DNA from: Bacteroidia bacterium | Lineage (GTDB): Bacteria > Bacteroidota > Bacteroidia > SpSt-205 | Assembly (NCBI GenBank): GCA_025062295.1 | Contig: JANXAJ010000005.1 | Location: 23,681-67,149 of the forward strand | Length of the DNA stretch: 43,469 bases | Direction of reading: 5' to 3' | In this document: one piece after another, positions 37,614-43,469 of the stretch | Numbering within the stretch: position 1 is the first letter of the stretch | Layout: each line of letters begins with the position of its first letter | Position numbers and translations under genes: made by a program | The notes under the pieces: generated by a model | Database searches by the model: none | Seen by the model: the letters and a program-made list of their open reading frames with translations, nothing else | What the model was told of the DNA's origin: nothing

Positions 37614-38857
37614 GGTTTCGGGTGTCTTATCAGAGGCCCCCTTTACCGATTTTGATTGAGATAGATGGACTTCCTATTTATTGGGTTCAGACGGAAGGAC
37701 CCTTGGCTTCATTTGTGGCGATATGGGAAGCCCCTGCTTTGAAGGAATATCCGGCGGGGCTGCGTCGCCTCCTCCTCAGGCTTATGAGTGAGGAAAATGA
37801 GGTCTATCCTGCCGGCAAGCTTCATGAGCAACTTCATCGGCTTGGCTGGCAAGCTCAGTGGAGTGCTGGGCGAGACACTCTTACTTTGAGTGGCGAAGGG
37901 CTGAAAGAAGGACTGAGCCGAGCGCTTGATATTCTCTATACGGCGGTGGCTGCCCCTCTCTTAGCTGGACCTGAGGTAGGACGCCATTTGACCCAGCTCG
38001 TGCAAGCAGAGAAGCGAGCTCGCGCTCACCCCGCCTATCAAGGTGATAGTCGTCTTGCCTTTCATTTGTGGGGTAGAACCTATAGCCATACTGGGAGTAC
38101 GCCGATAGAGGTGCTTGAACGCATGGATACCACTCAGCTTCGCCCCTACTATGAGCGATTTATTCTAAGAGGACTAAAATCCCTTATCATTGCTGCTGCT
38201 GAAGTGCCTTTTGCTTTGCTGAGGCGATGGTCCTGCTGGCATCAGCGGATTAGCTACGAGCTGCCCCTTCCAATGCAAGACCTTTTGATTCGGGAAGCAA
38301 TACCGATGGCACAGGCTCAGCAAGTGTCTCTGAGGCTTGCATTTCCTTGGGTGCCTCCTCTTCACCCCCAGTACGCTTTCTATCGGTTAGCTTTGATGCG
38401 ATTAGGAGGCTATTTCGGAGCGATTCTCATGCAGTCAGTTCGGGAAGAAGGGGGGCTTACATATGGGATTTATGCTCATCCCGAGAGGTGCTTGGCGGGC
38501 AGCTATTTTGTCATATCTGCCGAGGTGGCTACCCCTCGTGCAGAAGAAGCCGTGAGTCGGATTTACAAAGCAGTGGAAAGCTGGCACCTAAATCCTTTTC
38601 CCACTGAAGATGTGCTTTTAGAGGTGCGGAATCTACTCCTTCTTCAGAGTATGCCAGAGACGATACAGGAATGGGTGTCTCGTTTGACCCGAGCCATTGG
38701 AGCAAATGTACCAATAGAGTTTGTAGTTCATCAAGACCAAGAAATTGCTGCAATAGAACGAAGAGAGGATTGGCCAGAGATAGTCCTGCCTCATTCACCT
38801 GTGGTGGAAGTGGCTATTGGCACTGCTGAACCTATTTTTGCGGCTTCATGCGGCTGA
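37610..38857 (+). CDS. M16-like peptidase homologue lacking the zinc motif
   Basis: The 415-residue protein has two M16-like halves. The N-terminal half lacks the inverted zinc motif HxxEH; where it is expected the sequence reads PAGLRRLLLRLMSEENEVYP. The C-terminal half keeps the substrate-side motif SVREEGGLTYGIYAHPE (about 278-294). Such proteins usually form a heterodimer with a catalytic M16 subunit, which is not adjacent here. No signal peptide is visible, so it is likely cytosolic. It starts with GTG on the previous stop (GTGA) and overlaps purQ by 10 nt. Confidence 0.82.
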   Translation: MRFRVSYQRPPLPILIEIDGLPIYWVQTEGPLASFVAIWEAPALKEYPAGLRRLLLRLMSEENEVYPAGKLHEQLHRLGWQAQWSAGRDTLTLSGEGLKEGLSRALDILYTAVAAPLLAGPEVGRHLTQLVQAEKRARAHPAYQGDSRLAFHLWGRTYSHTGSTPIEVLERMDTTQLRPYYERFILRGLKSLIIAAAEVPFALLRRWSCWHQRISYELPLPMQDLLIREAIPMAQAQQVSLRLAFPWVPPLHPQYAFYRLALMRLGGYFGAILMQSVREEGGLTYGIYAHPERCLAGSYFVISAEVATPRAEEAVSRIYKAVESWHLNPFPTEDVLLEVRNLLLLQSMPETIQEWVSRLTRAIGANVPIEFVVHQDQEIAAIERREDWPEIVLPHSPVVEVAIGTAEPIFAASCG

Positions 38858-39495
38858 GAGCGGGGATTGTGGTTTTTCCGGGAAGCAACTGTGACAGAGA
38901 TTTATACTATGCCTTGGAACGAGCAGGTTTTGTTCCACAGTACCTTTGGCATGCTGACATCACTCTGCCTCTTCTCCAAGCTGTATTTTTACCTGGGGGA
39001 TTTTCATATGGGGATTATCTAAGGGCTGGAGCCATTGCTCGGTTTGCCCGGATTATGCCAGCCATAGAGGAATTTTGGCAAAGAGGAGGCTTTGTTATGG
39101 GAATTTGTAATGGATTTCAAATTCTTTTAGAGGCGGGGTGGCTCCCTGGGGCTTTACGGCGCAATGCTCAAGGGCGATTTATTTGCAAGGTAGTTAGCGT
39201 AGTGCTGGAGGGGGGTGGTCCTCTGGCGGCGTATGTAGGAGGACGACCTTACTATCTGCCGATTGCCCATGCAGAGGGGCGTTATGTTCCAGGTGGAGAG
39301 ATGCCTCGCTGGTTTCTGCGATATACTCCTCCTGTTCCTAATGGGAGCTACGCTGCTATTGCAGGATTTGGAAATTCAGAAGGCACCGTTTTCGGTCTGA
39401 TGCCTCATCCTGAGCGGGCTTGTGATGCGTATCAAGGCAGAGGGGATGGGTTAGACTTCCTGCGGGGTGTGGCTCGTTATCTCCTGAGCCGGTAG
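38848..39495 (+). CDS. purQ: FGAM synthase glutaminase subunit PurQ
   Basis: PurQ is the glutamine amidotransferase subunit of phosphoribosylformylglycinamidine synthase; it supplies ammonia to PurL. The 215-residue class I GATase shows PGSNCDRDLYYAL, PGGFSYGDYLRAGAIA, the nucleophile Cys87 in GICNGFQIL, HAEGRY and the His-Glu pair in MPHPERACD (about 187 and 189). Its presence implies a three-part PurSLQ complex. The ATG lies within the preceding gene (10-nt overlap) and nuoL starts immediately after its TAG. Confidence 0.96.
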   Translation: MRLRAGIVVFPGSNCDRDLYYALERAGFVPQYLWHADITLPLLQAVFLPGGFSYGDYLRAGAIARFARIMPAIEEFWQRGGFVMGICNGFQILLEAGWLPGALRRNAQGRFICKVVSVVLEGGGPLAAYVGGRPYYLPIAHAEGRYVPGGEMPRWFLRYTPPVPNGSYAAIAGFGNSEGTVFGLMPHPERACDAYQGRGDGLDFLRGVARYLLSR

Positions 39496-40926
39496 GTGGG
39501 GGGGCGCTGGAGCTTGATAGTCGTAGCGGTTGGCAGCCTTATTGTACGTCTCCTTACTTCAGAACCTTTCCTTCGGACAGCTGCCGAAATCACGAGCATT
39601 ATCGCTCTTTATACTCTCATCTTCACTCAGAGAAACCTCTTCCTTTATGGGGTGGCCTTTGCCTCCGTCTTGACTGGGGTTGCGCTTCTGGTGCATGCCG
39701 CTCATCCTTTTATGATAGTTGCGGGATGGGAGCTTCTCAGCATAATGGGATGGATGCTCATTGCCTATAGCGGAAAGGGGAGGTGGGAGAGTGGGAGGGC
39801 CGCACTTAGCGTGCTGCTGACGAATAAATTGGGCGATGTATTCTGGATAGCAGGTGTCTTGGCGGGTGGTGCTTTTTCAGTCGGGGTATGGGTAGGTCTC
39901 TTTGTCAAGGTGGGGGCATTTCCTTTTACTTTTTGGTTAGTGCAAGCTATGCGAGCTCCTGTGCCTGTGTCCGCACTTCTTCATTCTGTGGCTGTAGTAG
40001 GCATAGGGGCTTACTTTCCCTTGAAATACCCCTCTTTAGCAGGAGGGGGCATTCCCACTCCCTGGATGGAGGGAATTATCATAATAAGTGGAATAGCAGC
40101 TGGAATAGGGGCTCTCCTTGCTCGCTCTCCTAAGCTGATTCTAGCATGGAGCACGGCGGCCCACCTCTGCATCGTCCTCCTCTCAAGTGCTCATCAGCCC
40201 CTTGCGTTAGAGTATCTTCTTCATCACAGCTATTTGAAGGCAGCTCTCTTCCTTTTATTGGGAGTCTTTTCCCATAAGCAGATTGGCGGCGGCATTATAG
40301 CCTTCCTCTGGACTGTATCGGCTCTTTTTCTTTCGCTTGGATGGGCTGAGCTTAGGAGAGAGACCCTTCTCATAGAGATGCTCACGACGGTGGCTGCTGG
40401 CCGAGCCCTTGCTCGGGAAGCGGGTTCAAGACTTTTCTTCCTTCGTCCGACGGGATCATGGCGCGTATGGCTTCTCGTAGGTGTGGCTAGCCTTCTGATT
40501 GGAGTTGGGGGGATTTGCCGAGGTATGCCTGCACTTCATCCTGCCGATGCACTCGTGGGTGCAGGCTTTTTGGGAGGAATTCTGTACTCCTCTCCTTTTA
40601 GATTTCGCTTGGACCTTCCCTTCTTCCTTCTATTGTCAATGCTATTTCATCTTTGGCTCAATATAAGTCGAGTGGTTCATGCTATTGACCAGAAAATAGA
40701 CAATTTTTGGGCTTCTGTCGCTGCTGTAGTTATTCGTATAGCTTCTACTTTTGCAAGGGTAGAGACTTTTCTGACAGCTGTAGGCTTGCGACGAGGAGCT
40801 CAATTTGTCCGACGGCTCTTCGCCTTCTTTGTAGGCGAAGCTCAAGGGACTTCCTACTCTCAAGCTCTGACTTGGGGCTTTGTAGTATCGCTCATTATTG
40901 CGGGGATATGGAGGCTCTGGCGCTAA
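39496..40926 (+). CDS. nuoL: NADH-quinone oxidoreductase subunit L, short form
   Basis: NuoL is a proton-pumping antiporter-like subunit of respiratory complex I. This 476-residue form is much shorter than the usual 600 or so. The core is present: AGWELLSIMGWML (TM5 Glu), LFVKVGAFPF (TM7 Lys), APVPVSALLHSVAVV and HHSYLKAALFLLLG (TM10-like Lys). The C-terminal lateral region (VVHAIDQKIDNFW) and a final membrane segment are kept. The N-terminal helices are reduced and the usual TM11-12 region with a Lys in FFSKDEIL is replaced by RRETLLIEML. It starts with GTG directly after the purQ stop and overlaps nuoM. Confidence 0.85.
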   Translation: MGGRWSLIVVAVGSLIVRLLTSEPFLRTAAEITSIIALYTLIFTQRNLFLYGVAFASVLTGVALLVHAAHPFMIVAGWELLSIMGWMLIAYSGKGRWESGRAALSVLLTNKLGDVFWIAGVLAGGAFSVGVWVGLFVKVGAFPFTFWLVQAMRAPVPVSALLHSVAVVGIGAYFPLKYPSLAGGGIPTPWMEGIIIISGIAAGIGALLARSPKLILAWSTAAHLCIVLLSSAHQPLALEYLLHHSYLKAALFLLLGVFSHKQIGGGIIAFLWTVSALFLSLGWAELRRETLLIEMLTTVAAGRALAREAGSRLFFLRPTGSWRVWLLVGVASLLIGVGGICRGMPALHPADALVGAGFLGGILYSSPFRFRLDLPFFLLLSMLFHLWLNISRVVHAIDQKIDNFWASVAAVVIRIASTFARVETFLTAVGLRRGAQFVRRLFAFFVGEAQGTSYSQALTWGFVVSLIIAGIWRLWR

Positions 40927-42302
40927 ACCTATTGTGGCTTTTGCCAGCCTGCCTTTCGCTGTCTCTTCTAATTAGTCCGCTTGCAATGCTGCGGCCCCTT
41001 ACTATCATTCATGGGACTCTTCAACTGGCTATATGGGGAATCCTATATGTGCATTCCCCCTCTGAAGGTCTTCACTATCAAAGGGTATGGTTTAATCTTG
41101 GTAGTACGGAATTTTTCTACTCAATTGGAGCTCATCCTGCCAACTTTGCTCTGATTCTCCTTACGATTCTGATTGGGCATCTTGCTCTTTTGTATGGGCA
41201 GGGTCAGGTGAGTCGTGTCCGAGAATTTTCAGCTCTTGTGCTTCTTACGGTGGGTTTTTGCCAGGGGGTATTTTTAGCTGAGGATGTGCTTTTATTTTTC
41301 GTTTTCTACGAGGCAGCCCTTATTCCTTCTTTCCTTCTTATTTATGGGTGGGGTGGTGAGGGGAGAAAAAGTGCGGCTGTCAAGTTTGCTCTCTTTACAT
41401 TAGGAGGGTCGGTTCTCCTTCTTGTAGGGATCGTAATAGGGTTAGGGGATAGAGCGCAGGGGCTCCATTCAAGTTGGCAAGGGGCGGGGCTTCCTCCATT
41501 AGCATGGCTCCTGATGACGGTAGGTTTGAGCGTAAAGCTCCCTCTCTTTCCTCTTCATAGCTGGTTGGGTGAAGCTCATGTGGAAGCAGAGACGTCCATT
41601 TCTATGATTTTAGCTGGGATTTTATTAAAGCTGGGAGGCTATGCTCTCTTGTACTGGGTGTGGAAGGGGATTGGGGAGGGGCAGTCGCTTCTTCTGAGAG
41701 TATGGGGTGGCGTGAGTCTCGTATATGCGGGGGCGGTGGCTGCAGGGCAGCACGACCTTAAGCGGCTTATCGCTTTTACTTCTGTGGCACACATGGCGGT
41801 CGTAGCGATTGGAGCTGGAGCTCAAAGTGTAGATGGACTTCGTGGAGCCTATCATCAGCTTTTTGCTCATGGGGTTATTATTGCGGGGCTTTTTGCTTGG
41901 ATCGGGCTCGTGGAGAAAAAGCTAAAGGGGCGACTTATTTCTGAGCTTCGGGGACGATTCTCTCAGAGGAAAAGGTGGCAACTTCAAGCAGCTCTCCTGT
42001 TTTTTGGGGCTATGGGTGCCCCTGGTATGGCTCTATTTATCTCAGAACTTATGGTGATATGGGGTGTGGCAAAGGGAGTGGGATGGGCATGGGCTCTTCT
42101 TCCAGGTGTGGGACTACTGCTGACAGCTATCTATTTTCTGCGAGTCTATAGGGAGTTAGGAGGGAGAAGAGAGGAGGAACGGGTTCTCCTTGAGCCGATG
42201 GACCTTCAGGAAGGAATCGTATGGGGTTTGATTGGATTCTCTGGAGTCGTGGGGCTCTATCCAGCAATATGGCTGAACCTTCTCTCGCATGTGGGGCGTT
42301 GA
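40908..42302 (+). CDS. nuoM: NADH-quinone oxidoreductase subunit M
   Basis: NuoM is a second antiporter-like membrane subunit of complex I. The 464-residue protein keeps VFYEAALIPSFLLIYGWGG (TM5 Glu), SVKLPLFPLHSWL (TM7 Lys), LLKLGGYALL (TM8 Lys), KRLIAFTSVAHM and GAPGMALFISELMV (TM12 Glu). I start at ATG 40908, 19 nt inside nuoL, because the preceding in-frame stretch is Ser/Cys-rich and not membrane-like. It overlaps nuoN by 14 nt. The gene order L-M-N is canonical. Confidence 0.93.
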   Translation: MEALALNLLWLLPACLSLSLLISPLAMLRPLTIIHGTLQLAIWGILYVHSPSEGLHYQRVWFNLGSTEFFYSIGAHPANFALILLTILIGHLALLYGQGQVSRVREFSALVLLTVGFCQGVFLAEDVLLFFVFYEAALIPSFLLIYGWGGEGRKSAAVKFALFTLGGSVLLLVGIVIGLGDRAQGLHSSWQGAGLPPLAWLLMTVGLSVKLPLFPLHSWLGEAHVEAETSISMILAGILLKLGGYALLYWVWKGIGEGQSLLLRVWGGVSLVYAGAVAAGQHDLKRLIAFTSVAHMAVVAIGAGAQSVDGLRGAYHQLFAHGVIIAGLFAWIGLVEKKLKGRLISELRGRFSQRKRWQLQAALLFFGAMGAPGMALFISELMVIWGVAKGVGWAWALLPGVGLLLTAIYFLRVYRELGGRREEERVLLEPMDLQEGIVWGLIGFSGVVGLYPAIWLNLLSHVGR

Positions 42303-43469
42303 GCAGCTCTGGCCTGAGACGTTTCTCATTGCGGCTGGGCTTGTCCAGCGATGGAGGTGGGGACTAATCGCTTTTCTTATTCTTTATGGCTTCGGAGTGT
42401 GGTGGCAGCGGGAGTCTACTTCTGCTTTGCTTGCCTTTGACACGAAGGCATGTCAGCTTAATCTCACTTTCGTTGGCCTGACTGCCTTTATGTGGTGGGT
42501 CTCTCCCCTCTCTCAAGCCTCGGGATGGGCAGTGCTCCTTCAGTTAGGTAGCTACGGCCTGCTTCTGCGAAGCGTCAACCTCGCTTTTAGTTGGGCTCTG
42601 ATGGAGAGTGGGGCAATAGGAGGTTATTTCTTGGTGGCAAATGCGGGAGCTTCTCCAGAGCGGTGGGGAACGGCGATCCGATATCTCACTTGGAGCGTGA
42701 TAGGCTCGGCACTCGTGCTTCTGAGCATAGCTGTTCGCTTAGTAGAGCATCACTCCCTCTTCTATCCCCTTGAATCAGGGGGAGAATGGGCCGATCACCT
42801 TTTTTCAATAGGATGGGCCTTAAAGGTGGGCTTTATCCCCTGGCATTTCTGGATGATGAGTCTGTATCGTACTCTTCCAGTAGCTTGGGGGGGGTGGTTT
42901 TCTATCGTCCCGAAAGGAGCCCTTCTTCTGAACCTCCTCTCTAGCCTAAAGGAGGGAGGTCTAAAACTAGACCTCTGGTATGGGCACGCGATCCTCTCTA
43001 TGTTGGGGGCGTATGCTTTAGGCTGGAGGGCACAGGATCTAACGGAGATGATATTTTGGGGAAGTTTTGCTCAAGGCGCCTACACAGCGTTAGCAGCGAC
43101 AGCGGGGGGGAAAGAAGCAGGGTGGGATTTTTGGCAGGTGTATAGTATAGGAGGACCCTTAGCTCTCCTCTATGCGAGCGTTCCGTGGCAGAGTCGGGAG
43201 GGACGAAGTATCGGTTTGCTCCTTCTGGCAAACTTAGCTGCTGTCCCACCTATATTGGGTTTCTGGGTCAAACTCCAACTTTTCTGGGTTTCCGTAGCTT
43301 TCCTCTCGGAGGGAGAGCGGTGGGTTCTGATAGGGGCGGCACTTTTTGCTACGATTGGCGGCTTTGCTGTGTATGGGAAGCTCCTTTGGCGCTTATGGCA
43401 CCAGGAAGCTGTGGAGGAGCCGCCTCTAATTTTGAAGTCGGCTTACATCTTGAGCAGCATAGTGCTTTT
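42289..43469 (+). CDS. nuoN: NADH-quinone oxidoreductase subunit N, 3' end missing
   Basis: A frame open to the window edge begins at ATG 42289, inside the nuoM 3' end. It encodes at least 393 residues of a polytopic membrane protein. It matches NuoN: LMESGAIGGYFLV (TM5-like Glu), AIRYLTWSVIGSALVLL, ALKVGFIPWHFWM (TM7-like Lys) and SIVPKGALLL (TM8-like Lys). These residues are the proton-path acids and lysines of the antiporter-like subunits. No other nuo gene precedes nuoL here, so the rest of complex I is encoded downstream or elsewhere. It is partial only because of the window edge. Confidence 0.85.
   Translation, partial: MWGVEQLWPETFLIAAGLVQRWRWGLIAFLILYGFGVWWQRESTSALLAFDTKACQLNLTFVGLTAFMWWVSPLSQASGWAVLLQLGSYGLLLRSVNLAFSWALMESGAIGGYFLVANAGASPERWGTAIRYLTWSVIGSALVLLSIAVRLVEHHSLFYPLESGGEWADHLFSIGWALKVGFIPWHFWMMSLYRTLPVAWGGWFSIVPKGALLLNLLSSLKEGGLKLDLWYGHAILSMLGAYALGWRAQDLTEMIFWGSFAQGAYTALAATAGGKEAGWDFWQVYSIGGPLALLYASVPWQSREGRSIGLLLLANLAAVPPILGFWVKLQLFWVSVAFLSEGERWVLIGAALFATIGGFAVYGKLLWRLWHQEAVEEPPLILKSAYILSSIVL

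Follow-up and report, generated by a model that had tools for sequence, protein, structure and literature searches.

A shortened NuoL without the terminal lysine helix, probably belonging to a second complex I in a genus of Bacteroidia

The route by which protons leave complex I is disputed: an exit through NuoL only has been proposed (PMC10212512), as opposed to separate exits for the single antiporter subunits (PMC9802314). For NuoM, the path is described as K265-H322-E407 (PMC9271201). Truncations of E. coli NuoL, at the N- or at the C-terminus, leave little or fragile enzyme (PMC3274701). DabB lacks the NuoL residues Lys399 and Asp400, which are replaced by a Glu of its partner DabA (PMC13144422). 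The window analyzed here, i.e. the whole stretch of 43,469 nucleotides from contig JANXAJ010000005.1 of a Bacteroidia bacterium (G000:C55:23681-67149, where G000 is the own genome), ends with three genes coding for NuoL-, NuoM- and NuoN-like proteins, located behind purQ. They are indicated as L', M' and N', where the prime marks, for these as for other subunits, the second-set copy.

These proteins are interpreted, from sequences and structural models, as the probable distal arm of a second complex I with 11 subunits, encoded by scattered genes, which would be working and would have a rebuilt proton exit in L'; a probability of about 0.78 is assigned to this reading. Ten subunits (A, B, C, D, H, I, K, L, M, N) are doubled in the own genome, a further J (J') is present and NuoF is single: L', M' and N' are therefore best read as the arm of a second complex I.

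Two sets of complex I genes

The first-pass annotation, based on the sequence of the window, had indicated nuoABCDHIJK as the genes to be located in the genome. NuoA, B, C, D, H, I and K are each found at two places, and L, M and N each occur twice among six places matching Proton_antipo_M. The canonical copies include a full-length NuoL, featuring the FFSKDEIL motif, on contig C22 with its own J and K, as well as M on C37, N on C47, H on C14, D on C4, A on C48, C on C7 and I on C6. For NuoJ, one copy is found by Pfam; the diverged J' lies directly behind I' and is a weak match to the NCBIfam NuoJ model (E=0.0014). The slimmed complex I arm, anticipated by the first pass, gains support from this doubling of nearly all core subunits, while the idea that L', M' and N' serve the only complex I of the cell is rejected, since a canonical set was found. 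A second full-length nuoL within a complete operon had been regarded as evidence against the slimmed arm: the full-length gene exists (C22), but a complete nuo operon was seen for neither set, and the gene does not contradict the slimmed arm, since almost all core subunits have a second copy.

Copies of NuoA, C, I and F were counted in 7 of the 11 genomes of the genus. NuoC and NuoI are double in all seven (one further NuoI match, of 21 positions, is present in G003); no second NuoF was found, this subunit being single in 7/7 genomes, and NuoE and NuoG lay outside these searches. One NADH module might be shared by both sets.

Among the stretches inspected in the own genome (those of canonical A, C and I by tblastn), nuo genes are adjacent only as J-K-L (C22), I'-J' and L'-M'-N'. 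The canonical complex I genes are mostly found singly, on contigs C48, C66, C7, C4, C28, C14, C6, C22, C37 and C47. In G006, a single contig of 2,268,343 bases, A, C, D, F, I, L, A', C', D', I' and L' lie 17 to about 510 kilobases from their next neighbour: the scattering is therefore not an assembly effect. Beside the canonical nuoN, two long frames (L009:2141-4186 and L009:4244-6742) look, by eye, like penicillin acylase-type hydrolases.

Coupling residues outside L' were tested in the own genome at 19 positions, and none of these is lost: H' accounts for 6 of them, K' for 2, J' for 1, N' for 4 and M' for 6. M' features the equivalents of NuoM E144, K234, K265, H322, H348 and E407, and N' those of E133, K217, K247 and K395. 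As to the redox core, GPQHPSTHG and VDRLDY are both present in D', whose score of 407.6 exceeds one curated cut-off for NuoD equivalogs (360), B' carries the CC, GSC and PGCP cysteines and passes TIGR01957, and I' carries both [4Fe-4S] motifs; what these motifs bind is presumed. A hydrogenase-type complex was rejected, as D' contains no CxxC in its 374 residues and passes the NuoD cut-off. In a relative, G052, the NuoK of the second set (L168:10596-10901) has, in the alignment, its second conserved Glu (E72) replaced by Ala.

The purQ-nuoL'-nuoM'-nuoN' locus and the anatomy of L'

The genes at the end of the window are listed below; TM indicates a transmembrane helix.

38848-39495, + strand: purQ; GATase_5 match (E=1.1e-37), upstream of L' in 11/11 genomes, no gap to nuoL'
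39496-40926, + strand: nuoL', 476 residues; input half-channel, lateral path to K248 and predicted lateral helix kept, TM1, TM12b and terminal Lys gone
40908-42302, + strand: nuoM', 464 residues, ATG start; 287.8 bits to TIGR01972, over the cut-off of 263.8
42289-43469, + strand: nuoN', ATG start; 393 residues up to the contig end

The frame of nuoL', 476 codons long, opens with a GTG right after the purQ stop; the overlap is of 19 bases between nuoL' and nuoM' and of 14 between nuoM' and nuoN'. As the contig stops at the window end, N' is truncated there at 393 residues: its complete orthologues contain 401-411 residues, counted from the equivalent ATG. Upstream of L' the window contains purQ, an M16 peptidase and a DUF697 (Pfam) gene. 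In searches of the own genome, none of NuoA, B, C, D, F, H, I, J and K was located on this contig, where nuoLMN stand behind purQ with no other nuo gene upstream, as originally described. The adjacency of purQ and nuoL' is found in 11/11 genomes, with zero gap in the window and a short gap or overlap elsewhere; we know of no functional link between the two.

When 60 genomes, own included, were searched for L', long matches were obtained in all 11 members of the genus, with 36-43% identity in the other ten; the remaining 49 genomes gave nothing, or matches to at most 229 query residues, nearly all inside frames of more than 500 residues. The order DUF697, M16 peptidase, purQ, L', M', N' is kept in the ten other genus genomes (tblastn). 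Start codons having been picked by hand, the size of L' ranges from 463 to 506 residues; in G002 (L100:9989-11506) an insert of about 30-40 residues is present near the N-terminus (alignment columns 54-94). L' and M' frames are complete in 11/11 genomes and N' in 9/11, the other two (G000, G005) hitting the contig end. A frameshift or assembly artefact, considered in the first pass, is excluded by the conservation of the short form in 11/11 genomes, i.e. by comparison of genomes rather than by read mapping. Conservation is lowest in L', at 33-40% identity to the window protein, as opposed to 43-58% for N' and 52-63% for M'.

A profile scan of genome contigs with the 11-member L' alignment returned 11 loci, while the single-protein query gave none. 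Ten of them carry, letter for letter, the L', M' and N' frames of ten genus genomes, 30 in total; the eleventh is a weak Altiarchaeota match (25%). NuoL models match all 11 members at E<=0.001, and Proton_antipo_M covers L' in profile positions 86-226 of 294 only. In PHROGs, L' has one weak match (E=7.6e-4), and N' has none.

L', the NuoL of E. coli and full-length relatives were aligned with MAFFT; one full-length row (L164) is a wrong frame, and conclusions rest on the nine others besides E. coli. In L', TM1 is absent, the loop between TM6 and TM7 is reduced and the segment containing FFSKDEIL and TM12b is deleted, while RRETLLIEML sits between a short TM12 and TM13. The picture drawn from the window alone, of a 476-residue NuoL with fewer N-terminal helices, RRETLLIEML in place of FFSKDEIL, and a first half-channel that still has its Glu, Lys and His, is in agreement with the alignment, where these three are E79, K138 and H163. 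Six residues are invariant in 11/11 L': E79, D114, K138, H163, H244 and K248, equivalent to E144, D178, K229, H254, H338 and K342 of E. coli NuoL.

39730-39732, + strand: codon of E79, corresponding to E. coli NuoL E144 (TM5), invariant in 11/11
39907-39909, + strand: codon of K138, corresponding to K229 (broken TM7), invariant in 11/11
40162-40164, + strand: codon of H223, an invariant His; Gln in full-length NuoL (Q315), His in NuoM (H322)
40237-40239, + strand: codon of K248, corresponding to K342 (TM11), the last conserved Lys of the central axis
40291-40338, + strand: short unbroken helix, residues 266-281, in the place of TM12; conserved charge absent
40375-40377, + strand: codon of the invariant E294, a candidate for a relocated terminal residue
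40612-40779, + strand: predicted lateral (traverse) helix, residues 373-428, 56 residues

K399 and H334 are kept in none of the 11 L', and TM1 and the broken TM12b are lost in all of them. The terminal Lys of TM12, within an S/T-K-D/E motif, is accordingly found in 0/11 L'. As a control, the motif is present in 19 of 20 distinct NuoL-like genes (in one case as TKE, by eye); 27 loci were scanned, giving 21 rows for the 20 genes, with no row for L166, L167 and L038-L041. The exception, L047 (G050:C46), is a 539-residue NuoL-like frame, read as DabB-like from its length and its HSFYKA motif. The loss of D134 was dropped as an argument, since this residue varies among full-length NuoL too. Two residues are of a different kind: H223 is newly invariant, at a site occupied by Gln in E. 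coli NuoL and in the full-length NuoL of correct frame, and E294 is the sole invariant Glu beyond K248, Asp or Glu being retained at 373, 398 and 423. In the D400 column L' features Asp in 4/11 and Glu in 1/11 members, in a stretch of uncertain alignment.

AlphaFold models were obtained for the L' of the window and of G006: their mean predicted local distance difference test scores are 72.8 and 78.3, with weak C-terminal parts. In both, ten membrane helices up to K248 are predicted, then a short unbroken helix in the TM12 position, followed by three helices, the 56-residue lateral helix (residues 373-428 and 368-423), a short helix and a terminal one. Aligned by VIA-align on E. coli NuoL, the models give Z 34.0 (394 residues aligned, 5.2 Å) and Z 37.0 (422 residues aligned, 4.5 Å).

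L', M' and N' might, instead, form a separate, Mrp-like or DabB-like antiporter or carrier complex, outside complex I. The top NCBIfam match of the window L' is a MrpA-type model (E=5.6e-20), the three genes are unlinked to other nuo genes, and the DabB precedent cited above shows the same missing Lys and Asp. Yet M' passes the NuoM cut-off, the lateral helix appears in both models, and the other second core copies would be left without L, M and N. Moreover, no DUF2309 (DabA) protein is present among 9 downstream neighbours scanned in two genomes, a genome-wide DabA or Mrp search not having been made. On balance, such a complex is regarded as improbable.

The principal alternative retains the second complex I and differs in the exit step: L' would be a structural cap, with pumping by M', N' and the E-channel, and fewer protons translocated. 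Loss of the terminal Lys in 11/11 L' is in line with a cap, as are the low conservation of L' with respect to M' and N' and the block of proton conduction by K385I in isolated Thermus Nqo12 (PMC11496545). A mere cap, however, would not need the Glu-Lys pair, H163, H244 and K248, which are invariant in 11/11, and in Nqo13, mutations of the blocking kind made the enzyme slower as a whole, without lowering its stoichiometry (PMC9802314). The cap is thus a possible, somewhat doubtful explanation. The chain leading from the quinone site to K248 is strictly kept, while the rest of L' is at 33-40% identity, which argues that L' still moves protons. The Glu substitute of DabB and the path in NuoM, taken together, favour a rebuilt exit at H223 and E294. 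L' would then most likely be, as judged from its sequence, a part of a rapidly evolving quinone reductase of complex I type, in which the NuoL proton exit is rebuilt.

In such a second complex I, the assembled subunits would work as follows. Electrons from a cytoplasmic donor would enter via the two [4Fe-4S] clusters of I' and pass to the B' cluster, and quinone would be reduced between B', D' and H'. Through the E-channel (H', K', J'), the charge signal would then reach the Glu-Lys modules of N' and M', and go on to L'. L' would take up protons and pass them along E79, K138, H163, H244 and K248; their release would most likely occur via the rebuilt site, for which H223 and E294 are candidates and which the kept lateral helix would clamp in place.

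The genus appears to keep a complex I without the proposed exit helix, the rest of the coupling chain being intact. A working complex I devoid of the NuoL TM12 exit Lys may release protons through a NuoM-like His-Glu exit (H223-E294), or elsewhere, so that an exit only through NuoL/ND5 TM12 might not be universal: this is suggested tentatively, at odds slightly short of even. The exit models differ in what they predict for such an enzyme, which could serve as a natural test of the proton pump. Within the open-licence PubMed Central literature, among the titles and starts of abstracts listed (at most 20 per search), no report of a complex I NuoL without TM12b was found.

Relatives and origin of the second set

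A search for D' in 100 genomes, own included, found relatives of it beyond the genus: identity is 71% in G011 (same family), 58% in G012 (same order) and 53-57% in six genomes of the class. In a NuoD tree of 45 rows, leaving out E. coli and the rows of G037 (one of them masked with N), D' forms a clade of 18 (ten from the genus and 8 from outside it) with support 100/100, apart from the canonical clade (17 rows). A third NuoD clade is found in ten other genomes of the class (L142-L151; 358-residue part, ending with IPDIDR or IPDVDR). G037, a very small genome of the same class (a single contig of 0.49 Mb; L166, L184), features NuoD of two types and NuoL-like matches at more than one place.

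End branches in the NuoD tree measure 0.08-0.26 for the second set (11 rows) and 0.04-0.06 for the canonical one in the same family (5 rows). This faster evolution, along with scattered genes and shortened subunits, could point to a decaying or inactive duplicate. Such decay is, however, very unlikely, given that L' and M' frames are whole throughout the genus, and N' ones in 9/11, that coupling residues are invariant and that gene order is kept.

In relatives, parts of the second set are organized in runs: A-B-C-D in G095, and H-I-J-K-L-M-N, without E, F or G alongside, in G052. The other NuoL of G052 (a 647-residue frame, at 3732301) lies about 6 kilobases from the canonical NuoD (3739083), therefore the H-N run goes with D' by elimination. 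NuoL in this run contains 678 residues, with SKDAI, NuoN 530 and NuoH 357; the corresponding sizes in the own genome are 476 for L' and 300 for H', with the 401-411 of complete N' orthologues. The shrinkage is therefore read as having occurred inside the present lineage. B', D', I', M' and, slightly, C' outscore the canonical copies against the second set of relatives.

In a tree of antiporter subunits, L' groups with NuoL against NuoM (100/99), with no resolved sister, and M' groups with the NuoM of a relative carrying the second set (94/85). The tree includes 9 of the 11 L' rows; L038-L041 gave no row, and Mrp and DabB rows were not included.

A number of findings weigh against the assignment to a second complex I with a rebuilt exit. 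Some concern its distribution: NuoA is double in 6 of the 7 genomes counted, A' being not found in G004, which contains one copy; D' is whole in 10/11 genus genomes, with a 35-residue piece only in G009 (83% complete); in G007 D' is present and canonical D was not found. Others concern the identification of the subunits. A', C', H', I', J' and K' score under the curated cut-offs of their families, as does D' for TIGR01962, and L' reaches 36.9 bits to the NCBIfam NuoL model TIGR01974, whose cut-off is 407.5; score-based surveys may therefore miss such subunits. A', H', J', K', L' and N' score no better than the canonical copies against the second set of relatives, and would belong to set 2 by elimination. 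With branches as long as 3.87 (L') and 3.03 (M'), the placement of L' in the antiporter tree is unsure. As to the structure, the check by prediction and alignment, proposed in the first pass, returned a NuoL fold with its lateral helix, yet ND4 and MrpD chains fit the second model too (Z 35.2 and 34.8, about 335 residues aligned): the fold alone, therefore, does not set NuoL apart, and only the lateral helix is NuoL-specific. In profile-profile alignment, homology to NuoL extends up to TM11 (99.4% probability) and then ends, so that the assignment of TM12-TM13 rests on MAFFT and the models. The H223/E294 exit is a proposal drawn from residue conservation. Finally, the linker just ahead of E294 contains Lys or Arg in 5/11 L' and none in 6/11; a terminal Lys could therefore linger in some species, without being conserved.

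Comparison with known systems

With the Desulfitobacterium hafniense system (PMC11238625), the second set shares eleven core subunits and the absence of a second NuoF; here, in contrast, a canonical complex I exists alongside, genes are scattered, and NuoL is about 470 residues long, without the TM12 Lys. MrpA and MrpD have the antiporter core in common with L', whose best NCBIfam match is, as said, of MrpA type; unlike them, M' is a NuoM by curated cut-off, and the neighbours are purQ, M16 peptidase and DUF697 in 11/11 genomes, in the lack of a genome-wide Mrp search. DabB2 of DAB2 (PMC13144422) resembles L' in that K399/D400 are not self-supplied and the half-channel of TM4-11 is kept; but in DabB the lateral helix is short and the partner DabA gives the Glu, whereas L' is predicted to have a 56-residue helix and sits with M' and N'. 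NuoL, ND5 and Nqo12 share with L' the predicted fold (Z 34-37), the TM5 Glu, the TM7 Lys, the His of TM8 and TM11, the TM11 Lys and the lateral helix, predicted in L'; unlike them, L' lacks TM1, the broken TM12b, K399 and H334, and features H223 and E294 as newly invariant residues.

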